Assembly: GCA_021841865.1 (NCBI GenBank)
Contig: JAKCDM010000005.1
Location: 8,822-60,071 of the forward strand
Direction of reading: 5' to 3'
Length of the DNA: 51,250 nucleotides
Origin: Pseudomonadota bacterium
Lineage (GTDB): Bacteria; Pseudomonadota; Gammaproteobacteria; Burkholderiales; Burkholderiaceae_C
The position numbers and the translations under genes were made by a program. Under the pieces are notes generated by a model. It saw only the letters and a list, made by a program, of their open reading frames with translations. It was not told the origin of the DNA and searched no databases. Position 1 is the first letter of the stretch; each line of letters opens with the position of its first letter. This document shows, piece after piece, positions 34-14,905 of this stretch.

Positions 34-975
34 TCAGGCCGCCGGGCGCGGTGCCTCGGTGGCGCCGAAGGTCTCGACCAGGAAGCCCTCGCCATGCTCC
101 AGGATGAAGGTACGGAAGGTCTCCGCGGCGGGCGACAGCAGCTTGGCCAGGCTGTTGACCGCGTGCCAGCGCCGCAGCACCGGCATGCCCTGGATGCGCG
201 GCACGGCGAGCAGGCCGTCGCGCAGCTCCAGGCCGATGGTGTGCAGCGACAGGAAGCTGATGCCCATGCCCGCCATCACGGCCTGCTTGATGCTCTCGTT
301 GCTCTGCATCTCGGTGAAGCTCTGCAGGTCCACGCGCTGCGCCTGCAGATACTCCTCGAACGTGGCACGTGTGCCGGAGCCCGGCTCGCGCACGATCACG
401 TTGAACTCGGCCAGCGCCTCGGCCGGGTGCGGTCCGCCGCGCGCAAGCGCATGATCGGGCGGCGCGACCACGCCCAGCGGATGCACGGCGAACGGCTCCG
501 CGCGGGTGTCCATCTCGCGCGGCGGACGCCCCATGATGGCGAGATCGAGTTCGCTGTTCTGCAGGTGGTCGATGAGCTGCGCGCGGTTGCCGACGAACAG
601 CCGCACGTCCAGGTGCGGATACTGCTCGCGAAACCGCGCGAGCAGGCGCGGCACGAAGTACTGCGCCGTGCTCACCATGCCGATGGTCAGGCGTCCGCCC
701 TTGATGCCGCGCAGCCGCGCCATCGCATCCTCGGCGTCTTTCAGCGTGCCGAGGATCTTGCGTGCGTAGACCAGGAAATACTCGCCGCCGAGGGTCAGCG
801 AGACGGTCTTGCCCTGGCGTTCGAACAAAGGCAGCCCGACCAGCGACTCGAGCTCGCGGATCTGGATGGACACGGCTGGCGGCGTCAGGTGCATTTCCTG
901 CGCGGCCTTGCCGAAATGCAGATGCCGCGCCGCCGCGCTGAACACACGAAGCTGCCGCAGGGTGACGCCTTTCAC
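34..975 (-). CDS. cbbR: LysR-family regulator, CbbR-like
   Basis: Predicted transcriptional regulator of 313 residues, the usual LysR length. The N-terminus carries the winged helix-turn-helix (LRQLRVFSAAARHLHFGKAAQEMHLTPPAVS in pieces, roughly residues 5-60), followed by a LysR substrate-binding domain (about 90-295). The opening LRQLRVF and the 'HLTPPAVS' recognition helix resemble CbbR, the activator of Calvin-cycle genes. I chose the GTG at 975 because AGGGGA sits just upstream and the helix-turn-helix begins directly after it. It lies on the same strand as the cbb operon but is separated from it by the 7.6 kb FDYSLQL cluster, whereas CbbR genes usually sit next to and divergent from cbbL. 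LysR identity is certain; the CbbR assignment is family resemblance plus context. Confidence 0.75.
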   Translation of the reverse strand: MKGVTLRQLRVFSAAARHLHFGKAAQEMHLTPPAVSIQIRELESLVGLPLFERQGKTVSLTLGGEYFLVYARKILGTLKDAEDAMARLRGIKGGRLTIGMVSTAQYFVPRLLARFREQYPHLDVRLFVGNRAQLIDHLQNSELDLAIMGRPPREMDTRAEPFAVHPLGVVAPPDHALARGGPHPAEALAEFNVIVREPGSGTRATFEEYLQAQRVDLQSFTEMQSNESIKQAVMAGMGISFLSLHTIGLELRDGLLAVPRIQGMPVLRRWHAVNSLAKLLSPAAETFRTFILEHGEGFLVETFGATEAPRPAA

Positions 976-1644: not shown

Positions 1645-2313
1645 TCATGAAATATCCAGGCTGGTTCCTGTCCCACGGACAACCGTCATGTCGTTCGTGT
1701 GCCTGCCGGAACGATCGCCGGCTGCCGCCGGGCCCGGCGCTGCGATGCTCGACACGGGTCGCGGCGCGGCATCCGGCGGCGGCCCGACCCACATGCTCGG
1801 ACCGTAGCCCGGCGTCACGTCGAACAGGCAGTCTTCGGAGTCCGGAGTGTGCTCGACGAGTTGCAACTCGGTCTGCTCCGAACCGGGCTTCCAGTGCAAG
1901 GTGAAATTGAGCGATGCGCCCTCCCAGGACTGCGCCAGGGTGCAATAGTGGTAGTTGGTCTCGTTGCGCAGGCCGTAGCGGCTTCCGTCGGCCAGCAGCA
2001 TGTTGAAGGCGACGCCGTCGAAGCGCAACGCCGGCGCGATGGAGTACACCCCCAGCTCGCTGTGCTGTCCAGGACCGATGCGCGGCACCGTGCGCAGCGC
2101 CAGGATGTCCCTCGCACCCACGAACGAGCCGTGCGACACGTCGTTGCCGAGGCGGTTGGCCAGTTGCAGGCTGTAGTCGAACTGCAGGCCGGTCGCGTTG
2201 TAGAAGCGGTAATGGATGGCGCCTGCTTCGGCGGGCGTTGCGGCCTGGGCGAGCCACCATGCGGCGCCCAGTGCGCTCCAAGCGATGCGATGCGAATTCC
2301 TTGACGAGTTCAT
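1645..2313 (-). CDS. Exported single-domain FDYSLQL protein (copy A)
   Basis: 222 residues: a signal peptide (about 1-30, ...ATPAEA-G), one copy of the cluster's shared domain (about 33-175), then a Pro/Ala-rich tail. The domain shows YRFYNATGLQFDYSLQL (FDYSLQL at 45-51), VAFNMLLADGSRYGLR (about 101-115) and VTPGYGPS at its end. The two family cysteines are C124 and C162. This is the last gene of the minus-strand cluster, separated from copy B by a 290-bp spacer, so it may have its own promoter. The start follows the signal peptide; no good ribosome-binding site is visible. No known family recognised; export is supported, function unknown. Confidence 0.8.
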   Translation of the reverse strand: MNSSRNSHRIAWSALGAAWWLAQAATPAEAGAIHYRFYNATGLQFDYSLQLANRLGNDVSHGSFVGARDILALRTVPRIGPGQHSELGVYSIAPALRFDGVAFNMLLADGSRYGLRNETNYHYCTLAQSWEGASLNFTLHWKPGSEQTELQLVEHTPDSEDCLFDVTPGYGPSMWVGPPPDAAPRPVSSIAAPGPAAAGDRSGRHTNDMTVVRGTGTSLDIS

Positions 2314-2603
2314 GATCGAGATCCGGAAGGGGACGGGAGGATGCCGCGCGGCGCCGGCGTGGTTCGCCGCAGGCCTGCGCCGCCATGCTGACATCCCTGA
2401 GACCCACGGTCGGGATCCAGGTTCCCGCAGGGGCATGCCGGACCGGTCGATGCTTCAGCAGGCATGCTGCGCAGCAGCTGCGCAGCGTGGTCGCCGCGAT
2501 GCGCCGGCTCACGCACACCTGCCGCGGCCATGCCGACGGCCTGATGCGTGCCCCGGGCGTGCGTCATCGCGTCGCGACGTGCGAAGCGCGGCAGCGCTGC
2601 CGG
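2314..2603. other. Intergenic spacer A-B, rich in CATGC
   Basis: No gene is supported here. The spacer contains four CATGC words (2394, 2434, 2463, 2529), two within GCATGC-like palindromes, and many GC-rich short dyads. A promoter for copy A would lie here, but I see no convincing -35/-10 pair. Confidence 0.5.
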
Positions 2604-3590
2604 CTACAGGCTCGGGCCGAAACCGGGCGTCACGGTGAATACGCATTCATCGTCGTTCGGCAGTCTCTCGACCAGCACCAGTTTTCCGGCGCCGTGCTGC
2701 TCGAGCAGGAACATGATCCACTTGCCGTTCCAGTCCTGCGACAGCCTGCAGCCATGCTGGAAGGAGCCGCCCACGATGCCGCGCAGCCCCCACTCCTGGC
2801 CGTCCACGGTGACCATGTTGAAGGCCACGTGGTCATGCTCCAGGTAGGAGGCGATCGCGTAGCTCTTGTCGACGCTGTGGCCGTGCGCGGGCATGATCGG
2901 CTGATTCGTCAGTTCGACCAGGGAAGGCTTGCCGAAGCTGACGAACTGCCCCGGCTGGTACTCCATGTCCTCGCCGATGCTGTTGGCGAGTTGCAGGCTG
3001 TAGTCGAACCTCAGCGAGGTGTCGTTGCGGAACTCGACATGCACGCTCGGCATGTCCGGATGGGCCGGCGGCCTGAGCAACAAGCTCGGCCCGTAGCCGC
3101 GGACCACGCGAAAGCTGCAGCGCGCGCCGTGCGTCGATCGCACGACGAGTTCCAGGCGACTGCTGTCTCGCGCTTCAGGATGCAGGACGACGTGGATCCA
3201 GGCACCTTGCTGCGGCTCGCCGATCCTGCACACATGCTGGCCGCCGGGCTTCAGCTTGCGCAGGCCCCATTCGCTTCCGTCAGGCATGCGCAGGTTGAAG
3301 GCCACCAGATCGTTGCCGCCTGCGTCGTCGAGGCGATAGAACCGCTTGTGGCTGCGGCCGCGCGCAAAGATGATCGGTTCGTCCGTCAGGTCGCGCGTCA
3401 GCGGAGTGCCGAGGAACACCGTATTCCTGGGCTTTCCCTTGCCGCCTTCGTTGGCGACTTGAAGGGTGTAGTCAAAGCTCGAGGAGGTCTGGTTGTGAAA
3501 CTGCAGGTTCAAGGTTTCGGCATGTGCGCACGCCAGGCCCGGCGCCGTCATCAGGATGCCGAGAAATCGCCTCGTGAGCCATCGTCTCAT
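2604..3590 (-). CDS. Exported two-domain FDYSLQL protein (copy B)
   Basis: 328 residues with a clear signal peptide ending ...LACAHA at residue 24, followed by two tandem copies of the shared domain (about 26-170 and 183-328). Domain 1 has SSSFDYTLQVAN, AFNLRMPDGSEWGLR and RGYGPSL with cysteines C121 and C158. Domain 2 has LRFDYSLQLAN, AFNMVTVDGQEWGLR and PGFGPSL with C281 and C316. The protein ends exactly at the domain boundary. GGAGACTGCG before the ATG gives a good ribosome-binding site. It starts 12 bp after the decayed copy C. Family not recognised; predicted periplasmic or secreted, with one disulfide per domain inferred from the invariant cysteine pair. Confidence 0.85.
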   Translation of the reverse strand: MRRWLTRRFLGILMTAPGLACAHAETLNLQFHNQTSSSFDYTLQVANEGGKGKPRNTVFLGTPLTRDLTDEPIIFARGRSHKRFYRLDDAGGNDLVAFNLRMPDGSEWGLRKLKPGGQHVCRIGEPQQGAWIHVVLHPEARDSSRLELVVRSTHGARCSFRVVRGYGPSLLLRPPAHPDMPSVHVEFRNDTSLRFDYSLQLANSIGEDMEYQPGQFVSFGKPSLVELTNQPIMPAHGHSVDKSYAIASYLEHDHVAFNMVTVDGQEWGLRGIVGGSFQHGCRLSQDWNGKWIMFLLEQHGAGKLVLVERLPNDDECVFTVTPGFGPSL

Positions 3591-3602
3591 CGCAGTCTCC
3601 GG

Positions 3603-4061
3603 TCAAACAGGCTCCCGGGAAACGCCAGGCAAGCTTCGCCGCATGCCCTTCCCGTGCCGCGCTGCGGGCCGCGGCCTGCAAGGCGCGTGACAGCCCTGGC
3701 CCATGCTACGCAGCCAGCGCACGCGCGGGGCGCCCGAAGCGCGGGCTCGCAGCCGGCTGTCGTCAGCCTGACGCGCGGTTCGTGGCGCATGCACGGCGAC
3801 GAGCCGGCATGTGCAGTCGGCGCTGCCGGGTCGCCGTCGGCGTGTCAGCAGGCTGCGGGGCCGCTTGCCGATCGACGACGGATGCAGGAGGGTCCCACCT
3901 GGCAGTCCATGGCCCGGCTGCAGGCTGTAGTCGAAGCTCAATTCGGTGTGGTTCTCGAAACGGTAGCGGACGCTCGCCCCATGGGCCGCGCCGATGCCGC
4001 ACACCGCCAGCACCATGACGCACCAGCGCATGCCGGCCGCCGCCCGGCTCCGCAACGCCAT
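3603..4061 (-). pseudogene. Truncated FDYSLQL gene (copy C)
   Basis: An intact start and signal peptide (MALRSRAAAG... to ...GIGAAHGA) lead into VRYRFENHTELSFDYSLQ and SSIGKRPRSLLT, the first third of the shared domain. Similarity then stops at about 3843. The frame continues with unrelated Arg-rich sequence to a stop at 3603. The central AFNM motif, both cysteines and the GYGPS end are missing, and the remaining space is too short to hold them in any frame, so this is a deletion rather than a simple frameshift. An alternative start is the ATG at 4031. It lies between copies D and B in the same orientation. Confidence 0.75.
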
Positions 4062-4113
4062 CGCCCCACGCTCACGCACAGGGCTCGGGGTCTGGCCGTG
4101 CCTGGGGTGCGGC

Positions 4114-5232
4114 TCACTCGGGCAGCGGCGCCGGCAGCAGCGAAGACATGTGCTGAGGCATCGGCCCGAGCCACAGGCTGGGACCGAAGGTGCCGGGCTC
4201 CACGCCGAAGGTACAGCCTTTCCCGCCGGGCTCGCGCACTTGCAGTTCCAGCCCCTGCCCGACGCGGGTCGGCTGCAGAACGACGAGAATCTGCTTGCCC
4301 GCAGCCGAGCGCGGCAAGCTGCAGGAGCGGACTTCCGGCCGGATGCCGTCGCCCAGTCCATAGCGCCGGCCGGTCGGTGTGAGCATGGAGAACGCCAGCG
4401 CATCGCGCGCAAACCCGTTGCCGATCACGTACTGCGCAGCGCCGCTGCGGCCTCCCGGTCCGATGCCGGGCTTGGTCGTGAGCTCGCGGTTCGAGCTTTC
4501 ACCGCGAAACGAGGGGTTCCCGAGAAGGTCGTAGGTGCTGTCGGTGTTGCCCATCTGCAGCGTGTAATCGAAACGCAGGCGGGTCTGGTTCTCGAAGCGG
4601 TAACGCACCGTCAGCGGCGGCTCGCTCCAGAGTTGCGGGCCGTATCCCTGCGTCACCCCGAAGGTGCAGCGCTCGCCGTCGGGCAGTGCCTCGAGCAGTT
4701 CCAGGTCATTGCCCGGACCGTGGCTCGGCTGCAGCGTGAAGCTGATTCGCTCGCCGTTCCACTTCGGCGGCAACTGGCAGTAGTGCATGTCGTGCGCGGT
4801 CAGGAACATGCTCAGCAGATTGCTCTTGAAACGCAGGCCGAATTCCTCGCCGTCCGGCGTGCGCATGTTGAATGCCACCGCGTCGGATTGCCCGGGCTCG
4901 GCGATGTGATAGGGGATGTCCGGGCTGTCCCCGAACGCCGGGATGATCGGCTTGTCGGTCAACAGCGCGGATGACGCCTTGCCCGCGAACGATCGGTTGA
5001 GGACGTAGCTGAACCCGACATAGTTGCCGAGTTGCAGGCTGTAGTCGAAGGTCAGCCCGGTGCGGTTGTAGAGGCGGTAGTACACCATGCCGGCGCGCGC
5101 CGGCAGGATGCAGGCCGCGACCAGAGCCCCCTGCAGGAAGCTTCGCGTCGCGCGCGCCACGCGTCGCGTGCGCGTGCGCGGGCGCGGGCGCGCATGCCCC
5201 GGATACCCCGGGTACCCATCCGGCGTGACCAT
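4114..5232 (-). CDS. Exported two-domain FDYSLQL protein (copy D)
   Basis: 372 residues. A long, Arg-rich n-region precedes a hydrophobic stretch (SFLQGALVAACILPARAG, about 31-48), consistent with a signal peptide. Two domains follow (about 49-201 and 208-353): LTFDYSLQLGN, AFNMRTPDGEEFGLR, QGYGPQ with C152/C189; and LRFDYTLQMGN, AFSMLTPTGRRYGLG, GTFGPSL with C304/C340. The start overlaps the stop of copy E in a TGATG arrangement, which implies translational coupling and supports this otherwise unusual start. Domain 2 is more diverged than domain 1. Function unknown. Confidence 0.82.
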   Translation of the reverse strand: MVTPDGYPGYPGHARPRPRTRTRRVARATRSFLQGALVAACILPARAGMVYYRLYNRTGLTFDYSLQLGNYVGFSYVLNRSFAGKASSALLTDKPIIPAFGDSPDIPYHIAEPGQSDAVAFNMRTPDGEEFGLRFKSNLLSMFLTAHDMHYCQLPPKWNGERISFTLQPSHGPGNDLELLEALPDGERCTFGVTQGYGPQLWSEPPLTVRYRFENQTRLRFDYTLQMGNTDSTYDLLGNPSFRGESSNRELTTKPGIGPGGRSGAAQYVIGNGFARDALAFSMLTPTGRRYGLGDGIRPEVRSCSLPRSAAGKQILVVLQPTRVGQGLELQVREPGGKGCTFGVEPGTFGPSLWLGPMPQHMSSLLPAPLPE

Positions 5233-6329
5233 CAACGCACATGCTCGGGTGGCTCTTCGGTGTAGCTCGGACCGTAGCCCGGGGTGACGTCGAACCTGCA
5301 TGGATCGCCTTGCGGAAGATGTTCCACCAGTTCCAGGTCCTTGCCGTCGGAGCCGCGGGGCTTCAGCACGAAGAGCACGATCTTGCCATCCCATGACGAC
5401 TCCATGTCGCAGGTGTGCTGCCTGCCGTAGAACACCGACGAGGTTCGCAGGCCCCATTTCCGGCCGTCCGGGGTGCGCATGTTGAACGCCAGGGTGTCGG
5501 GGGCCGTGCCGCCGGAACTGGCGATCTCGTAGCGCACGCTGGGCGCCTGGCCGCCCGGGAACATGATCGGCGTGTCCGTCAACCGATCCGTGTCGGGCTT
5601 GCCGAGAAACGGAACCTGTTCGGGAATGTTCGGGTCGGCGTTCCTGCCGTTGCGCAACTGCAGGCTGTAGTCGAAGCTCAGCGAGGTGTGGTTCTGGAAC
5701 TGGATCCAGACGTAGGGTTGATCGGGATAGGTCACGCTCGGGCCGTACCCCTTCGTGATGTCGAAGTCGCACGGCGAACCCACGGGCGGCATCTCGCGCA
5801 GTTCCAGATGTCCGCCCTCGTACTGGCGCAGTATGAAGTGGACCAGCTTGCCGTCGGATGCCAGCGGAATGGAGCACACATGCATATCGCCGGGGAGCAC
5901 CGTGAAGCTTCGCATGCCCCATTTCTCGCCGTTCTGGGTGAGCATGTTGAAGGCCACCTCGTCCGCGTAATGCGGCTCTAGCGTGTACGTCTTTTCGGCG
6001 CTGGTCTGCCCCGGCCGGCTGCTCGGCCAGTGGCGGCTGAGTTCCGCGGTGGAAGCCCTGCCGAGAAACGTGACGCGGTCCTCGCGCTTGCGCAGCCTGT
6101 GGGCCTGGCCGAGCTGAAGGCTGTAGTCGAACGTCAGCGAGGTTTCGTTCGTGAAGTCGATGCGCACGGTTTCGGCATGCGCCAGGACGCTGCCTGCCAA
6201 GGCCATCACGAGCCCCGCGAACAGGTACTTCGCGCATTGCCACCGCGGCAGCGCCCGGCCGGGCAGGCAGGCTCCCGCGAGAAGCGCTCGACCGGCGCCA
6301 GGCGTCTCAACGCGTGTTGTCGTGATCAT
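5232..6329 (-). CDS. Exported two-domain FDYSLQL protein (copy E)
   Basis: 365 residues. GGAGG lies 8 bp before the ATG at 6329, inside the end of copy F. The long N-terminus ends in a hydrophobic segment (KYLFAGLVMALAGSVLAHA, about 34-52) that looks like a signal peptide. Domain 1 (about 55-198) has LTFDYSLQLGQ, AFNMLTQNGEKWGMR and KGYGPSV with C152/C187. Domain 2 (about 206-355) has LSFDYSLQLRN, AFNMRTPDGRKWGLR and PGYGPSY with C307/C344, and is close to the family consensus. F, E and D are spaced or overlapped tightly enough to be one transcription unit. Family not recognised. Confidence 0.85.
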   Translation of the reverse strand: MITTTRVETPGAGRALLAGACLPGRALPRWQCAKYLFAGLVMALAGSVLAHAETVRIDFTNETSLTFDYSLQLGQAHRLRKREDRVTFLGRASTAELSRHWPSSRPGQTSAEKTYTLEPHYADEVAFNMLTQNGEKWGMRSFTVLPGDMHVCSIPLASDGKLVHFILRQYEGGHLELREMPPVGSPCDFDITKGYGPSVTYPDQPYVWIQFQNHTSLSFDYSLQLRNGRNADPNIPEQVPFLGKPDTDRLTDTPIMFPGGQAPSVRYEIASSGGTAPDTLAFNMRTPDGRKWGLRTSSVFYGRQHTCDMESSWDGKIVLFVLKPRGSDGKDLELVEHLPQGDPCRFDVTPGYGPSYTEEPPEHVR

Positions 6330-6333
6330 GTGC

Positions 6334-6879
6334 TCAACCTCCGTGAATGCCGAGTCTGGCCAGGTTCAGCGTGGGCCTGCGATAGCCCATCCACAGACTC
6401 GGCCCGTACCCCGGCTCAAGCTCGAAACTGCAATGGGAACCGTCGGGCAGCCACTCGACCAGTTCCAGGCCCTTGCCGCCGCCACCCGCGGGTTGCAGCA
6501 CGAACACGACCCGCTTGCCGTCCCACCCCGCCCGCAGCGCGCAGTCGTGCACCGACTGCGCGCGGCTCAGACCGAATTTCTCGCCCGTCGTCGTCAGCAT
6601 GTTGAACGCGACACCATCGCGCTTCATGCCGCGTGCGATGACATAGCTGCGATCCAGGCTTTGTGCTCCGGGCCTGAAGTCGGGCAAAGGCTGCAACTGG
6701 TCGGTGTCGTAGGCGCCGAGGAAGGTCCGCGCAGTCGCGCTGCCACCCCGCACATGCGCAAGCTGCAGGCTGTACTCGAAGCTCAGTGCGGTACGGTTCT
6801 GGAACTGGCAGAAGACCAGCCCGGCGTGCGCCAGCACGAGGCAGAACGAACCCAGAACCAACACCACGACCTGTTTCAT
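6334..6879 (-). CDS. Exported single-domain FDYSLQL protein (copy F)
   Basis: 181 residues with a short, typical signal peptide (MKQVVVLVLGSFCLVLAHA, about 1-19) and one domain: LSFEYSLQLAH, AFNMLTTTGEKFGLS, CALRAGWDGK and PGYGPSLW, with C113 and C150. GGAGG stands 5 bp before the ATG at 6879, which decides against the GTG one codon upstream. The stop lies 4 bp before the start of copy E, so F, E and D should be translated from one mRNA. It is the minimal version of the domain and would be the simplest copy for structure prediction. Confidence 0.85.
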   Translation of the reverse strand: MKQVVVLVLGSFCLVLAHAGLVFCQFQNRTALSFEYSLQLAHVRGGSATARTFLGAYDTDQLQPLPDFRPGAQSLDRSYVIARGMKRDGVAFNMLTTTGEKFGLSRAQSVHDCALRAGWDGKRVVFVLQPAGGGGKGLELVEWLPDGSHCSFELEPGYGPSLWMGYRRPTLNLARLGIHGG

Positions 6880-7188
6880 CACATCCTCCGCAGAACGCGT
6901 GTGCGCCCATGCCGATCATCGGCGTGGGCGCGGCCCGTGCAGCAGGCCCGGCGTGCATCCACGACGCATGCTAGACATGCCGGGGCGGCATGTGGTGCTG
7001 GTGGCGCGCCGACTCACGCGGGCTTGCCGCCGCCTTGCCGGCTCGTTGATGCATGCGTCGAGGCAGGCACCCGCAGGCTTGCGCGCAGGCTCAACGCGGC
7101 GCCTGCGTCGGCAGCAGCGACGCCAGGTCTCAGGCGCGTTTGCCGCAGCGCTGCCGGAAGACTCACGCCCACGCGCGCATCGGAGGCC
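6880..7188. other. Intergenic spacer F-G, rich in CATGC
   Basis: No gene is supported in this 309-bp spacer. It holds CATGC at 6908, 6967, 6976 and 7052. On the minus strand, CTAGCATGC at about 6965-6973 carries a TAGCAT word that also occurs upstream of copy H and of the Sel1-repeat gene, and could be a -10 element for the F-E-D unit about 90 bp downstream. No convincing -35 box is visible. Confidence 0.4.
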
Positions 7189-8634
7189 TCAGTCGACGGG
7201 ATTCAACAGAAAGCTCCAGCTCGAGCCCGGGATCACATCGAAGCTGCAGTTGGTGCCGTCCGGCAGCCATTCGACCAGTTCCGCCTTGACGGCGGCAGTG
7301 CCGCGGGGTTGCAGCACGAAGGTGACGCGCTTGCCGTTCCAGTCCTGCGACAGCTGGCAATATTGCGGCATGATCAGGACCTGTTTGGGAATCAGACCCC
7401 AATACTTGCCATCCGGGGTCTGCATGTTGAAGGTCACGAAGTCCAAGGTGAACATTCGTGGAATCGCGAAGTACCCGACGATGCTCTGGCCCCCGGGAAA
7501 CATGATCGGTCGCGACGACAGATGGTCCACCGACGGCTCCCCGAGAAACACGAAGCCCTTGTGGAGCGGACCGCCCTGCTTGAGTTGCAGGCTGTAGTCG
7601 AAGCTCAGGGACGTGTGGTTGCGGAACTGGAAGGAGACCTCCGGCTGGCGCGCGAACACGGCGCTTTGGTCGAGCCCCGGCTTGAGGTGAAAGCGGCAGG
7701 GCCTGCCTTGCGCGGGCCGCTCCTCCAACTCGAGGTCGTCGGCATGCGGACCATGTGGCTGCAGGATGAACAGCACGGGCATGCCGTCGCGCGCCTGCGA
7801 CAGCTTGCAGGCATGGCGCACACCGCCTGCGCCGTCGCTGTGCAGGGCCCATTGCCGGCCGTCCGGCGTGAGCATCTGGAACACGACCAGGTCGCGGCCC
7901 GATTCCGGAGCGATCTCGTAGGCCTTCCCGGCGCTCTGCCCCTGTGGATGAATGATCGGATGCGTCGACAACGTGGCGATCGAGTGCGCTCCCAGGGTGA
8001 CGATCTGCCCGAGCAGCGGAACATGTCTGCCGGGCACGGCGTTGGCGAGTTGCAGGGTGTAATCGAAACTCCAGGAGCTGTTGTTGCGGAACCGCACGTC
8101 GACGATCGGACGTGGCGCTTCGGCGAACACCTCCGGTGCAAGGCTCGGGCCGTAGCCGGGGGTCATGGCGAAGCTGCAGCTTTGGTGCGTCGGCAGCAGC
8201 TCGAGAAGCTTCAGGCCCCTGCCGTCGGGGCCGTGCGGCTGCAGCACGAACGTGAGGTCTTCGCCGTCCCAATCGGGGGACAAGCTGCAGGTGTGCTGCG
8301 CCCCGGGCGCGAGTTTGCGCAGGCCCCACCGATGGCCGTCGGCGGTGCGCAGGTTGAAGGCCACCAGATCCCCGCCACGACCCGGTGCGATTTCGTAGTC
8401 CTTGACGATGCTCCTGCCGCCGGGCTCGATGATCGGCAGTGCGCTCAGGCGCGCGGCCGAGACCTTGCCCAGGTACACGCCGTGCGCGGGCGCACCCTGC
8501 TGGCTCGCGTTGGCGAGTTGCAGGCTGTAGTCGAAACTCAGCGCGGTGTTGTTCAGGAACCGGAATGGCAGCGTCGCGGCATGCGCCAGCGAGAAACTGC
8601 ACACGCTCAGCAAGGCCCCGAGGCTTGTTCTCAT
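7189..8634 (-). CDS. Exported three-domain FDYSLQL protein (copy G)
   Basis: The largest member, 481 residues: signal peptide (MRTSLGALLSVCSFSLAHA, 1-19) and three tandem domains (about 22-165, 177-325, 332-472). Domain 1: LSFDYSLQLAN, AFNLRTADGHRWGLR, GYGPSL, C116/C153. Domain 2: WSFDYTLQLAN, VFQMLTPDGRQWALH, no GYGPS (reads GLDQS), C276/C313. Domain 3: LSFDYSLQLKQ, TFNMQTPDGKYWGLI, end reads GSSWS, C426/C463. The cysteine spacing is exactly 37 residues in all three. AGGA about 9 bp upstream supports the ATG. The gene begins 36 bp after the decayed copy H. The domain copies differ enough that the duplications within the gene are not fresh. Function unknown. Confidence 0.85.
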   Translation of the reverse strand: MRTSLGALLSVCSFSLAHAATLPFRFLNNTALSFDYSLQLANASQQGAPAHGVYLGKVSAARLSALPIIEPGGRSIVKDYEIAPGRGGDLVAFNLRTADGHRWGLRKLAPGAQHTCSLSPDWDGEDLTFVLQPHGPDGRGLKLLELLPTHQSCSFAMTPGYGPSLAPEVFAEAPRPIVDVRFRNNSSWSFDYTLQLANAVPGRHVPLLGQIVTLGAHSIATLSTHPIIHPQGQSAGKAYEIAPESGRDLVVFQMLTPDGRQWALHSDGAGGVRHACKLSQARDGMPVLFILQPHGPHADDLELEERPAQGRPCRFHLKPGLDQSAVFARQPEVSFQFRNHTSLSFDYSLQLKQGGPLHKGFVFLGEPSVDHLSSRPIMFPGGQSIVGYFAIPRMFTLDFVTFNMQTPDGKYWGLIPKQVLIMPQYCQLSQDWNGKRVTFVLQPRGTAAVKAELVEWLPDGTNCSFDVIPGSSWSFLLNPVD

Positions 8635-8670
8635 GCGGCATGTCCTGCGGATGGCGGCGGCAGCGACCCG

Positions 8671-9278
8671 TCAGTCACCATCGTCCACCGGGGCCGCCGC
8701 GAACACGCAGGGCGGGCCCTCCGGCAGGTTCTCGACCAGGACCATCCGCGGGGCGGGCGTGGAGCCCGGGCGCGGTTCCAGCACGAAGCGCACGAGGCGC
8801 CCGTCCCATGCCGGCGACAGATCGCCGCAGCCATCCGAGCCCCGCATCTCGGCGTGATGTTTCGCGTGCGCGCCACGCTCGATGAAAAGCCGCCACCGCG
8901 CGCCGGCGGCGTGAGCATCCTGAAGCTCACCTTGTCATGTTCCGGCTGTCGGGGGAGCATGCACTCCTGCTGCGCGCTCCTGCCGCCGGGAAGCCTGGTG
9001 GGGGTCCTGAGCAGTTGACGGATCCGGCGCTTGCCGAGCCAGCTGGCCGGGTGGAGGTGATGAGCGCTTTCCAGGTCGTGGCGCAGCACCAGGCTGTGGT
9101 CGAAGCTCAGCGTCGTGTGGTTCTCGAACTCGTAGCGGATGACCGGAACACGGCGTCGAGAAACCAGGCCGCCGGCCTTGCCCGACACCGGATCAGGCTG
9201 CGTCGGCACGTGCATCGTTGCGCCCTGCGCGAGGTGCATGGCGAACCATACGCCGAGACCTCCGAGCCATCGCCGCAT
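8671..9278 (-). pseudogene. Frameshifted single-domain FDYSLQL gene (copy H)
   Basis: The start is good (AAGGA before ATG at 9278) and the signal peptide (MRRWLGGLGVWFAMHLAQG) is intact. The domain opens with VIRYEFENHTTLSFDHSLVL and proceeds to VSFRMLTP. Just after this, around 8902-8910, the reading must slip by one base. In the new frame it continues GARWRLFIERG...CGDLSPAWDGRLVRFVLEPRP...MVLVENLPEGPPCVF and stops at 8671, which is exactly what the family predicts. A single missing base within a GC run (between the CCG of TP and the GGC of G) explains it. Without a frameshift the product would be a 215-residue protein with an Arg-rich nonsense tail. A sequencing error is possible. Confidence 0.75.
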
Positions 9279-9334: not shown

Positions 9335-9502
9335 AGTCCACTGCGTCAGGGAAATGGCACCCCCCGTGTGGCCCCAGGCCTGCCCAATCAAGGCGCAGGG
9401 CACAGCCGGGTCGGGCACCCGGCGAAGACCTGCAACGCCGAGTGGGCAGGCCTGGGGCCGCACCCGCAGGGCCGAGGCGCCATTTCCCTGACGCAGTGGA
9501 CT
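9335..9502. mobile_element. MITE-like inverted-repeat element, copy 1 (168 bp)
   Basis: The element is bounded by perfect 24-bp inverted termini (left starts AGTCCACTGCGTCAGG, right is its complement ending CGCAGTGGACT). Inside lies a second dyad: GGCCCCAGGCCTGCCC near the left pairs with GGGCAGGCCTGGGGCC near the right, so most of the element could fold into one long hairpin. There is no coding capacity. A longer relative lies at 48886-49146. I see no clear target duplication around this copy. It sits between the FDYSLQL cluster and the end of cbbO. Confidence 0.8.
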
Positions 9503-9607: not shown

Positions 9608-11965
9608 TCAGCGCGTCAGGCTCATATACAGCAACGGCAGCCTTTCCGGCAGGCGCTCGACCTTGTCGATCACGCTGAAATTGCGCGCGCCGAAGATCCG
9701 CGACACGTACAGGTCGGCATGCGGATCCAGCGACAACGCATGCACGGTGACACCCTGGCGTGCCAGCGTCTCGACGGCGTGGCGCGTGTCATGGCGCAGG
9801 TATTGCGGGTCGCGCACATCGCTGTCCGCCGGTTCGCCGTCGGTCACCACCAGGCACAGCCGGCGCCGCCTGGCCTGCCGTGCCAGCAACTGTCCGGCGT
9901 GGCGCAGCCCCGCACCCATGCGCGTGGAGTAGGCGCCGCGCATGCCCGCAAGGCGCGCCCTGGCCAGTTCGCCGTAGGGTTGCTCGAAGTCCTTGAAGCG
10001 GTAGTAGTGCACGTCGTGGCGGCCGTCGGAGCAGAAACCGTGGATGGCGAAGGGATCGCCGATGCGCTGCAGCGCCTCGGCCAGCAGCACGGTGGCCGAG
10101 CGCGTCAGGTCGAGCACGCTGTAGTCGCGGCCGCGCACCTTGTCGTTGGAGGACTCCGACAGATCGAGCAGCACCATCACCGCGAGGTCGCGCTGCGCGC
10201 GCTCCAGGCGCACCATGCAGCGCGGGTCGGGCTGCGTACCCATGCGCAGGTCGCTCATCGCGCGCACCGCGGCATCGAGGTCGATGTCGTCGCCGTCCTG
10301 CCGGTGCCGCAGGCGCTGCAGGCCCTGCGGGATCATGGATTCGATGAGCCGCTTCAGGCGCGATACCACCGGCTTGTGCTCCGCCAGGATGGCATCGATG
10401 CGCGCCCGATCTCCGAGCGGGGGATGGCGCTCGAGCACGGTGGCCCAGCTCGGGCGCTCGAGCTGGATCTGGTAGTCCCACTCCGGATAGTGGTACGGCT
10501 CGGACACCGGCGCCCGCCCTTGCAGCGAATTGATGGTCACCTGTTCCTGGTCGAGATGGAACTCCGTGGGCAGCACCCAGACCTCCTGCGCGTCGTCGCC
10601 AGCGAACTCGCAGTCGATCTCGTTGACCATCTCCATCACGTTGACCTTGCGCCGGACCTGCTGGCGCGCCTGCCACGTCGCCTGCAGCGCCTGCGCCTCG
10701 TCGTAGGCCTCGAACTGCCAGACCACGCGGTTGTCGTCGCGGTACAGCGCGCGCTGCCCGTCCAGGCGACGGTGGAATTCGGGCAGGCCCAGCGCCTGCA
10801 GGCCATGGCCCAGCTCCACGCCGAGCTGCCAGCTAAGCCGGTTGTCGCGCAGGTCGGGCTGCGCCCTGAAGGCCGCGACGCCCTGGCGAACCCAGGGGTG
10901 CGCATCGTCCGGCGCGGGCTCCAGCAACGCGCGCGCCAGGCGATGCAGCAGGTCGCCGGCGCGCCGCGGCTCGCTCGTGTCGGCCGGCCCGTGCAGCGCC
11001 AGCCAGGGTGCGCGCATGTTGGGAAAGCGCCGGATGGCCAGGGATTCGACGCGCGCATCCTCGATCAGCTCGACCAGCGCGATCTGCAGGGGAGCGAGCT
11101 CCTGCATGGACAGCGCGCGACGCGAGAACATCAGGTGTGCGGTGCAGTGGTTGACCGCGGCGCGATACAGCTCCAGCCCGCTGACCATCGGCTGCGCCGG
11201 CGTGGCGCAGCCGCCCGCACGCCAGTCGTCGTAGGCGTCGGCGATGTGCACCACGTGGTCTTCGATGAAGGGGCGCAGGCCTTCGCGATGCTCGTGGTCG
11301 CCGGACGTGGGGCGCAGGAACACGTCGCGCCCCCACATCGCGCGCAGGTAGATGTTGAGCCGACGCTGCACGTTGACCAGCAGGGTGCCCTTGCGCTCCT
11401 GCTGCAGCACCGCCTGTGCGTCGGGGCTGCGCAGCGAAAAATACAGGGCCTGCCCGTCGAAGTCGGCCTTGTAGGCCTGTGCGCCCCACTGCACCCAGCG
11501 TCGCAAGCCGCCCAGCGTGAGCTGCGACAGCAGTTCGTCCAGGTGCTCGAGCATCGGGCGCAGCGCGCGCGGCACCTGACCCAGCATCAGCGACAGCACG
11601 CCGAAGAACTGGCGCAGCAAGTCGTCGTCGCCGAGGCGCCGCGCTGCCTGCGGGGCGGTGGCGGCGATCAGCGCCAGCACGGCGCCCGAGGTCTTCGACG
11701 CCATGGCCAGCAGGAAGTTCACCAGCTCCGGCAGCATGTCCTCGCCCACCGCGCGCGCCGTCTCGGGCATGGCCTGCAGGTAGGTCACGACGAGCTGCTC
11801 GCCACGCCCGAGCCGGTGCAGCGCCAACGCGCCGTTCAGGTAGTTGTCCAGGCCGCGCGGCGAGAACGCCCGCGCGGCCTCGGCCCAGGTCGCGCGCAGC
11901 AGTTCCTGCGCGCCGCCCGGCAGGTCGTCGACGAGTTCCTGGAATTCCTCGAGATGGAGGGCCAT
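9608..11965 (-). CDS. cbbO: RuBisCO activation protein CbbO (von Willebrand A domain)
   Basis: 785 residues, the usual CbbO size. With the hexameric AAA+ ring CbbQ it removes inhibitory sugar phosphates from RuBisCO. The C-terminal third is a von Willebrand factor A domain with an intact metal-ion-dependent adhesion site (DLSESS, about residue 597, with later GMRGAYSTRMG and VVTDGEP segments). The N-terminal region is helical and typical of CbbO. It follows cbbQ after 24 bp and is the last gene of cbbLSQO on the minus strand. Confidence 0.93.
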   Translation of the reverse strand: MALHLEEFQELVDDLPGGAQELLRATWAEAARAFSPRGLDNYLNGALALHRLGRGEQLVVTYLQAMPETARAVGEDMLPELVNFLLAMASKTSGAVLALIAATAPQAARRLGDDDLLRQFFGVLSLMLGQVPRALRPMLEHLDELLSQLTLGGLRRWVQWGAQAYKADFDGQALYFSLRSPDAQAVLQQERKGTLLVNVQRRLNIYLRAMWGRDVFLRPTSGDHEHREGLRPFIEDHVVHIADAYDDWRAGGCATPAQPMVSGLELYRAAVNHCTAHLMFSRRALSMQELAPLQIALVELIEDARVESLAIRRFPNMRAPWLALHGPADTSEPRRAGDLLHRLARALLEPAPDDAHPWVRQGVAAFRAQPDLRDNRLSWQLGVELGHGLQALGLPEFHRRLDGQRALYRDDNRVVWQFEAYDEAQALQATWQARQQVRRKVNVMEMVNEIDCEFAGDDAQEVWVLPTEFHLDQEQVTINSLQGRAPVSEPYHYPEWDYQIQLERPSWATVLERHPPLGDRARIDAILAEHKPVVSRLKRLIESMIPQGLQRLRHRQDGDDIDLDAAVRAMSDLRMGTQPDPRCMVRLERAQRDLAVMVLLDLSESSNDKVRGRDYSVLDLTRSATVLLAEALQRIGDPFAIHGFCSDGRHDVHYYRFKDFEQPYGELARARLAGMRGAYSTRMGAGLRHAGQLLARQARRRRLCLVVTDGEPADSDVRDPQYLRHDTRHAVETLARQGVTVHALSLDPHADLYVSRIFGARNFSVIDKVERLPERLPLLYMSLTR

Positions 11966-12914: not shown

Positions 12915-13244
12915 TCAGCGATAGACGACGAACGACGTGCCCTGGCTTTGCGCGAAGTTGTCGTAGGCGACGAAGCGCACCATGTGATCGGGGAATTCGC
13001 GGTGGCAGGCCTCGATCTCGGCGAGCACGGCGTCGACCGACTGCTCTCCGAACATGGGCAGCTTCCACATGTACCAGAAGCTGACCTTGGCCAGCGTCGA
13101 GCGCTCGGTGTGCTCGACCGCCGGGTTCCAGCCGCGCGCCAGCGCGAAGGAGATCTGGCGACGCACCTGCTCGGGGTCGAGTTGCGGCAGGTAGGAGAAG
13201 GTTTCGTACTTCTTGGTCGACGTGTAGGCCTGGACGATGGACAT
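12915..13244 (-). CDS. cbbS: RuBisCO small subunit, form I
   Basis: 109 residues with the signature opening [21 protein letters not shown] and the core [11 protein letters not shown], ending in [21 protein letters not shown]. It assembles with CbbL as L8S8. The short N-terminus without the insertion seen in carboxysomal subunits fits the form IAq type that is paired with cbbQO. It lies 55 bp downstream of cbbL. Confidence 0.96.
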
Positions 13245-13299: not shown

Positions 13300-14721
13300 T
13301 CAGCGATGGGCGACGTCGAGCTTGTCGACGGTGTCGAACTCGAACTTGATTTCCTTCCACGTTTCCATGGCGATCTTCAGCTCGGGCGAGTTCTGCGCCG
13401 CGGCGCTGAGGATCTCCTTGCCCTCGCGCTCGAGCTGGCGCCCCTCGTTGCGCGCCTGCACGCAGGCCTCCAGGGCCACGCGGTTGGCCGCCGCGCCGGC
13501 CGCGTTGCCCCACGGGTGGCCGAGCGTGCCGCCGCCGAACTGCAGCACCGAGTCGTCGCCGAAGATGCTCACCAGCGCCGGCATGTGCCAGACGTGGATG
13601 CCGCCGGACGCCACCGGCAGCATGCCCGGCATGGATCCCCAGTCCTGGTCGAAGAAGATGCCGCGCGAGCGGTCCTCCTTGATGAACTTGTCGCGCATGA
13701 TGTCGATCCAGCCCAGCGTCGCCTCGCGGTCGCCTTCGAGCTTGCCGACCACCGTGCCGGAGTGCAGGTGGTCGCCGCCCGACAGGCGCAGCGCCTTGCT
13801 CAGCACGCGGAAGTGGATGCCGTGATGCGGGTTGCGGTCCAGCACGGCATGCATGGCGCGGTGGATGTGCAGCAGCACGCCGTTGTCGCGGCACCACTGC
13901 GCCAGGCCGGTGTTGGCGCAGAAGCCGCCGGTCAGGTAGTCGTGCATGATGATCGGCGCGCCGATCGACTTGGCGTACTCGGCGCGCTTGAACATCTCGT
14001 CGGGGGTCGGCGCGGTGACGTTCAGGTAGTGGCCCTTGCGCTCACCGGTTTCCCGCTCGGACTTCTCGATGGCCTCCATGACGAAGTCGAAACGCTGCTT
14101 CCAGCGCATGAACGGCTGGGAGTTGACGTTCTCGTCGTCCTTCGTGAAGTCGAGGCCGCCGCGCAGGCATTCGTACACCGCGCGCCCGTAGTTCTTCGCC
14201 GACAGACCGAGCTTGGGCTTGATGGTGCAGCCCAGCAGCGGCCGGCCGTACTTGTTCATGATGTCGCGCTCGACCTGGATGCCGTGGGGCGGCCCGTTGC
14301 AGGTCTTCACGTAGGCCAGCGGAAACCGCACATCCTCCAGGCGCAGCGCGCGGATGGCCTTGAAGCCGAACACATTGCCGACCAGCGAGGTGAACACGTT
14401 GACCACCGAGCCCTCCTCGAACAGATCGATCGGGTAGGCGACGAAGGCGTAGAAGCAGGTGTCGTCGCCCGGCACGTCCTCGATGCGATAGGCGCGGCCC
14501 TTGTAGTAATCCAGGTCGGTCAGCAGGTCGGTCCACACCGTGGTCCAGGTTCCGGTGGACGACTCGGCGGCCACCGCGGCGGCGGCCTCCTCGCGATCCA
14601 CGCCGGGCTGCGGGGTGATCTTGAAGCAGGCCAGAATGTCGGAGTCACGCGGCGTGTACTCGGGCATCCAGTAGGTCTGCCGGTATTCCTTGACGCCGGC
14701 CTGATAGGTCTTCACTGCCAT
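13300..14721 (-). CDS. cbbL: RuBisCO large subunit, form IA
   Basis: 473 residues. It carries the carbamylated-lysine motif [13 protein letters not shown], the active-site TIKPKLGLS, loop 6 [10 protein letters not shown] and the C-terminal VDKLDVA. It fixes CO2 on ribulose-1,5-bisphosphate in the cytoplasm. The green-type sequence and the downstream cbbSQO identify the form IAq operon; no carboxysome shell genes are present in the window, so the enzyme is presumably free in the cytoplasm. AGGAG lies 8 bp before the ATG at 14721. It is preceded by an AT-rich control region. Confidence 0.97.
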
Positions 14722-14834
14722 GTCGATGACTCCTGGAGGATCACGCGCGATCCGTGGTGTGTCGTCCCTGCGCCGGCCGGCTGACGCGTTGCCGCCCCGG
14801 GACACGCCCGCGAAAAGCCGCGGGATGGGCGTAA

Positions 14835-14905
14835 CCATAAGCAGGCATTGAAATAAACACAATTTATATAATCAACATCTCAATTAAATTTTTTTCACCT
14901 ATTTG
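14835..14905 (-). promoter_or_regulatory. AT-rich control region upstream of cbbL
   Basis: A markedly AT-rich island in a GC-rich genome lies 115-185 bp before cbbL. On the minus strand it includes ATTTAAT, a 10-bp gap, then ATTATATAAAT, an imperfect dyad of the kind bound by LysR-type regulators such as CbbR. It is the only region between cbbL and the divergent protease gene able to hold the operon promoter. The exact -35/-10 boxes are not clear. Confidence 0.55.

Follow-up and report, generated by a model that had tools for sequence, protein, structure and literature searches.

PUD-1 and PUD-2 of Caenorhabditis elegans (PDB 4jde; Pfam PUD1_2, PF18457) are, in terms of predicted fold, the closest described counterparts of the domain considered here. 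The fold was reported in 2013 with no function assigned to it, and PMC3683130 describes that the two proteins dimerise via the beta5-beta6 hairpin, that four C. elegans PUD homologs are monomeric, and that a conserved surface patch lies in the beta6-beta7, beta4'-beta5 and beta2-beta3 loops. The present analysis concerns eight consecutive minus-strand genes at positions 1645-9278 of the window, that is, the whole stretch of 51,250 nucleotides analysed, which corresponds to positions 8822-60071 of contig C159 in an assembly (genome G000) of 3.45 Mb, 212 contigs and 5.52% contamination. Each of these genes combines a signal-peptide-like N-terminus with copies of a domain of about 148 residues. 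We give slightly better than even chances to the reading that the cluster arose as a tandem expansion, specific to its lineage, of exported, disulfide-bonded PUD-like domains, most likely non-enzymatic binding domains. The observation behind an earlier note on this DNA is confirmed and its overall interpretation partly supported. Three points are new: a predicted fold resembling that of PUD, a distribution confined to Thiomonas among the genomes searched, and a probable local expansion between cbbO and cbbR.

An eight-gene cluster of one repeated domain

The tandem cluster of one repeated, exported-looking domain described in the earlier note was recovered both in the open reading frames (ORFs) and with a profile built from 25 family domains, each reading frame being scanned separately. 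Eleven full domains were detected (E from 1.1e-44 to 1.3e-55), in agreement with searches within the window's own genome. The stump had been correctly recognised in the earlier count of twelve complete domains plus a stump, but the number of intact domains is eleven, because no single frame stays open across the domain of gene H. The layout is as follows, with one domain in A, two in B, a stump in C, two each in D and E, one in F, three in G, and a broken one in H:

1645-2313, minus strand: gene A, one domain at 1786-2226 (E 7.8e-49; ORF list and profile)
2604-3590, minus strand: gene B, signal-peptide-like N-terminus, domains B1 (3075-3521) and B2 (2607-3053) by profile
3840-4061, minus strand: gene C, a remnant with a signal-peptide-like N-terminus and only the first ~47 domain positions
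4114-5232, minus strand: gene D, domains D1 (4624-5094) and D2 (4168-4617) by profile
5232-6329, minus strand: gene E, domains E1 (5727-6176) and E2 (5256-5720) by profile
6334-6882, minus strand: gene F, one domain at 6388-6825, the copy used for structure prediction
7189-8634, minus strand: gene G, domains G1 (8134-8580), G2 (7654-8112) and G3 (7204-7647) by profile
8631-9278, minus strand: gene H, signal-peptide-like N-terminus and domain halves in different frames

N-termini resembling signal peptides were recognised by eye before all eight first domains, as the earlier note had stated; many of them end in AHA or a related motif, and export is predicted on this reading of the sequence. Gene A, which has such an N-terminus and a C-terminal tail of about 46 residues, likely starts at ATG 2313, and gene B at ATG 3590, preceded by a Shine-Dalgarno-like GGAG. 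The starts are uncertain for gene C (ATG 4061, 4031 or 4016), gene D (GTG 5160 or ATG 5232) and gene E, whose N-terminus is long. The stump of gene C (3840-3974) covers model positions 3-47 (E 2.5e-7), and the two pieces of gene H, in separate frames, cover positions 2-85 (8892-9146, E 3.4e-15) and 98-137 (8698-8829, E 3.7e-6). No enzyme, transporter or regulator gene lies within the cluster, again as first described. A C-terminal tail of the LDADYLRATGIDLRAVRAR type is conserved in single-copy relatives (L044:6114-6866, L050:2594-3337 and other singletons), with confident helices predicted in L044, and is apparently missing from the cluster genes.

The copies are diversified, as had been proposed, the eleven intact domains being 32-48% identical in pairs with 18 invariant columns in their alignment. 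The motifs that the earlier note had attributed to every complete domain hold more loosely: F-x-N-x-T/S...F-D/E-YSLQL is found in 7 of the 11 intact domains in its strict form, AFNM-x-TPDG-x-x-WGLR in only one, and both in all eleven once relaxed, whereas the C-x-L/I/M...W-D/N/E-G segment and the GYGPS end are present in seven and six of them, respectively. Strand 2 (FDYSLQ) is the most conserved element, and the least conserved ones are the beta2-beta3 (1.09 bits), beta7-beta8 and beta4-beta5 (1.54 bits) loops. Across all 25 aligned domains, N10, Q21, G37, P48, D70, C95, C132 and F134 (F numbering) are invariant, and an H93-x-C95 element is conserved. The same two cysteines occur in 25 of 25 domains, 24 of which contain no further cysteine, and this constancy is far beyond chance. 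C95 follows strand 6 and C132 opens strand 9; since these two strands lie side by side in the sheet order of PUD, the pair would form a disulfide in the modelled fold.

Predicted fold and relation to described families

Structure prediction of copy F with AlphaFold, followed by fold comparison, both suggested in the earlier note, gave a nine-stranded beta-sandwich with the PUD sandwich fold, for which PUD was a better match than ostreolysin A (Foldseek E 0.27). The beta-sandwich first guessed from alternating hydrophobic residues is thereby supported by the predicted models, and it is very probable that the products are exported PUD-like sandwiches. The likeness to PUD-1 and PUD-2 includes the predicted fold, its nine strands and a domain of about 145 residues, and extends to a/b-type relatives in Thiomonas, which are encoded by two adjacent genes and have a longer beta5-beta6 hairpin; these pairs are only suggestive of PUD-like heterodimers. 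In contrast with PUD-1 and PUD-2, the Thiomonas proteins possess signal-peptide-like N-termini and the invariant cysteine pair, their domains occur in chains of one to three, and the beta5-beta6 hairpin of window copy F is short. Just upstream of one tandem a/b pair lies a stand-alone Peptidase_C39 gene (L045:7455-8021, plus strand), and in L046 and L048 ORFs starting similarly are found close to the family gene.

No curated family was matched significantly in profile searches, so that the description of the family as unrecognised stands. PUD1_2 exceeded its cut-off of 28.8 bits in none of the 28 genomes of the genus, its sole row at E<=10 (E 0.234) being in G006, a genome that carries no family members, and it was absent from the results both for six window proteins (E<=10) and for 21 family members (E<=1). 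For the same six window proteins, Pfam at E<=10 yielded a single row, DUF5818 on G (E 0.011; 15.7 bits compared to a cut-off of 27, over 14 residues), and NCBIfam none. With the 21 members, PHROGs gave no match at E<=0.1, Pfam seven families with one member each (best E 0.13), NCBIfam five families with at most two members each (best E 0.04), and the anti-phage defence models of PADLOC at E<=0.1 one member of 21, on a type III methyltransferase model and at chance level (E 0.088). All these weak Pfam, NCBIfam and PADLOC rows are taken as chance. In a sequence search of the PDB, the best matches of F (E 0.14) and of profiles A1 (0.96), A5 (0.36) and A3 (0.5) were to unrelated proteins. Among the literature matches listed for Thiomonas, PUD1_2 and PUD-1/PUD-2, no title concerned the family, and a literature search for PF18457 found no paper.

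Distribution and probable origin at the cbbO-cbbR junction

With the domain profile, the family was found in 7 of the 28 genus genomes. Seven loci, out of 51 stretches fitting a pattern, could be named: two in Thiomonas sp. FB-6 (equated with genome G026 from where its copies lie), one in a Thiomonas metagenome-assembled genome (MAG), and four in MAGs titled Proteobacteria bacterium; the genus is read as Thiomonas from these named matches. Broader taxon samples, which overlap, are non-exhaustive and had at most 8-9 candidates per genome scored in a first pass, gave matches in 2 of 399 genomes at the family level, both of the same genus, and only in the window's own genome among 398 at the phylum level and 349 at the order level (the latter with profile A5). 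Genome contigs searched with F alone gave no match. In the genomes searched, a restriction of the family to Thiomonas is well supported.

The cluster is located between genes of a RuBisCO locus that we name cbbO and cbbR, these names, together with cbbL, cbbS and cbbQ, being assumed from gene order. Along the minus strand, an ORF at 13300-14862 is followed by one at 12915-13244, cbbQ, cbbO, the cluster and cbbR, and the first two ORFs correspond by alignment to the part of FB-6 that holds cbbL and cbbS. The cbbR side further contains a putative nodIJ-like ABC transporter, and a plus-strand EAL/protoglobin/GAF gene (Pfam run on the FB-6 ortholog). The features adjoining the cluster are:

34-975, minus strand: CbbR-like LysR-type regulator (Pfam HTH_1 and LysR_substrate), adjoining gene A
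9335-9502, no strand: inverted-repeat element of 168 nucleotides, lying between gene H and cbbO and dispersed across the genus
9608-11965, minus strand: CbbO-like VWA protein (Pfam VWA; synteny with FB-6), flanking the cluster opposite cbbR

The gap between cbbO and cbbR measures 8.6 kb with eight genes in the window versus 56 bp in FB-6. More broadly, cbbO lies within about 115 bp of cbbR in 6 of 13 loci (G004, G026, G009, G022, G024 and G012), whereas it was not seen within 1.5 kb in the other seven (window, C116, G005, G010, G015, G018 and G027), the contig of G015 ending before cbbO. In G010, G018 and G027 the gap is occupied by two genes resembling the BMC and trypsin-like pair of L009; in C116 and G005 it holds this pair plus one single-domain family gene and a divergent exported-looking protein, the trypsin-like gene of G005 being absent from the gene calls although its DNA aligns. 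The BMC and trypsin-like genes lie at L009:6206-7667 (minus), L087:5462-6935 (minus), L088:5412-6884 (minus) and L090:259-1711 (plus), assigned by Pfam on L009 and by similar starts in the three others. The window showed no such pair, its place being taken by the cluster. The exported-looking protein, of 168-169 residues, is encoded on the opposite strand beside the single family gene (L009:5672-6178, plus, in C116; L089:7393-7902, plus, in G005); its L009 copy has no Pfam match, and it does not resemble the family profile. The window also carries a short direct repeat with 16-nucleotide spacing at 1138-1192, which separates gene A from cbbR.

In the simplest history, the ancestral state would be one single-domain gene between cbbO and cbbR, such as a related species retains, and this gene would have expanded in the window lineage by gene duplication and in-chain domain duplication, leaving eleven diverging intact domains together with copies C and H in decay. 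A local expansion from a single copy is likely, and it probably proceeded through birth and decay of copies. In the tree, the eleven window domains and the single copies of C116 and G005 fall on one side of a branch supported at 100/99; inside that side the tree is mostly unresolved, and 13 of the 22 inner branches of the whole tree are open. The inverted-repeat element has 27-nucleotide arms that are 96% complementary and inner arms of 24 nucleotides (92%), and is MITE-like (resembling a miniature inverted-repeat transposable element) by appearance. Pieces of it were found in 17 of the 28 genus genomes at E<=0.001, several of which have near-full copies, and a further copy lies at C159:57707-57848. 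We infer that it could have helped recombination at the cluster.

Contigs C116 (L009) and C210 (L010) of the same assembly carry three more family domains and represent a second version of the cbbR-cbbO locus that is 80-87% identical and closer to G005. More precisely, C116 shares 89-92% identity with G005 over two long stretches, compared to 81-87% for the window and its left flank, and C210 is 89% identical to L049. The CbbR-like protein has at least one match at E<=1e-60 in all 28 genus genomes, and close cbbR orthologs number two in G000 (100% and 90%), with one full-length ortholog at >=77% in each of 11 other genomes and a partial match at a contig end in G007. In view of these identities and of the two cbbR orthologs in G000, the two contigs may come from a second population, the MAG probably being a mixture of two, and their domains are not counted as belonging to the same cell.

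Proposed role and its alternatives

The cluster products would be exported, disulfide-bonded, PUD-like sandwich domains acting in the periplasm, at the outer surface or extracellularly, and their one-, two- and three-domain chains would display several variants of one ligand-binding scaffold. Since there is no significant match to a catalytic family and no partner gene in the cluster, and since one scaffold has been multiplied, binding is the most likely role, but that the domains bind rather than act as enzymes or structural filler has somewhat short of an even chance. Any particular ligand, membrane lipid included, is doubtful. It is unlikely, though conceivable, that the family is a secreted, disulfide-bonded Thiomonas branch of PUD serving as a repertoire scaffold of ligand-binding variants, possibly as heterodimers like PUD-1/PUD-2.

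Several results weigh against an expanded set of PUD-like binding domains. In the tree, the window domains do not form one clade apart from their single-copy relatives, the label requiring two changes, and only one in 6% of the bootstrap trees. The two structure models share input sequences and are both predictions, and the family has no link to PUD1_2 by any sequence profile. Besides, the surface site described for PUD is not obviously kept, because two loops, beta2-beta3 and beta4-beta5, belong to the least conserved elements, and the fold tells little about the role because PUD-1 and PUD-2 lack a known function. No sigma-70-like promoter was found (0 versus 0.9 expected by chance). Finally, the ratio of nonsynonymous to synonymous substitution rates (dN/dS) among window copies, 0.42-1.09 with a proportion of synonymous differences of 0.40-0.64, is uninterpretable because synonymous sites look near saturation at the present GC content, and it was dropped as proof of diversifying selection; selection for diversity among the copies is therefore only presumed.

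Among the alternatives, the products may be membrane-active effectors that bind lipids on target cells, for competition or grazer defence, like the aegerolysins (PF06355; RahU, ostreolysin A) and domain 4 of the cholesterol-dependent cytolysins. The aegerolysins are likewise small single-domain beta-sandwiches, and ostreolysin A does appear in the Foldseek list; however, that match is weaker than PUD, and PF06355 exceeded its cut-off of 22 bits in 0 of the 28 genus genomes (one row, E 0.408). The 50 VIA structural matches listed contain no aegerolysin, and the term does not occur in the searched text of the PUD paper. In the same way, the resemblance to cytolysin domain 4 amounts to 3-11% identity and a root-mean-square deviation of 4.1-5.7, and the Thiomonas proteins are without the pore-forming core, no Pfam row for the MACPF/CDC domain being obtained with the six window proteins or the 21 members. 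Identity with the aegerolysins was rejected on the profile result, and identity with the cytolysins on the missing pore domain; the broader idea of lipid-binding effectors is judged unlikely.

A function in envelope stress or metal handling, with several variants kept for metal-rich habitats, would be in line with the export-like N-termini, with the conserved H93-x-C95, and with the ubiquity of Thiomonas strains in arsenic-contaminated environments described in PMC2720973. Nevertheless, the two cysteines are better explained by a disulfide, no significant match to a metal-binding family was obtained, and a presence in only 7 of 28 genus genomes means that the need is not general. This proposal is considered very unlikely.

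Little probability is also given to a birth-and-death process whose products would have little or no function at present, driven by repeated unequal crossing-over where the junction is permissive and a dispersed inverted repeat lies alongside. Two of the eight genes are indeed broken, the repeat adjoins the cluster, and promoters and starts are unclear, but eleven open domains with 18 invariant columns at 32-48% identity call for long purifying selection. In addition, dN/dS between the relatives' copies is 0.28-0.51, pairs with g26b reaching 0.77-0.87, from which the family proteins are seen to be constrained yet fast-evolving. Phage or plasmid cargo was rejected in view of the absence of matches by tblastn in plasmids (L044 protein) and phages (F) and of any relative among the 20 stretches obtained from viral contigs with profile A3. 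A viral structure library gave no match at E<=1e-3 (best 4.6e-3). A link with carbon fixation through the cbb locus was set aside because other copies (L044-L049) sit outside that locus, the products look exported, and the neighbours vary.

As an expansion of exported PUD-like domains, the cluster would offer a compact, duplicated bacterial version of the PUD fold, with relatives in Thiomonas sp. FB-6, and hence a simple system for finding the role of this fold. It would also provide a clear case of a single exported gene turning, within one genus, into a diversified multi-domain array.
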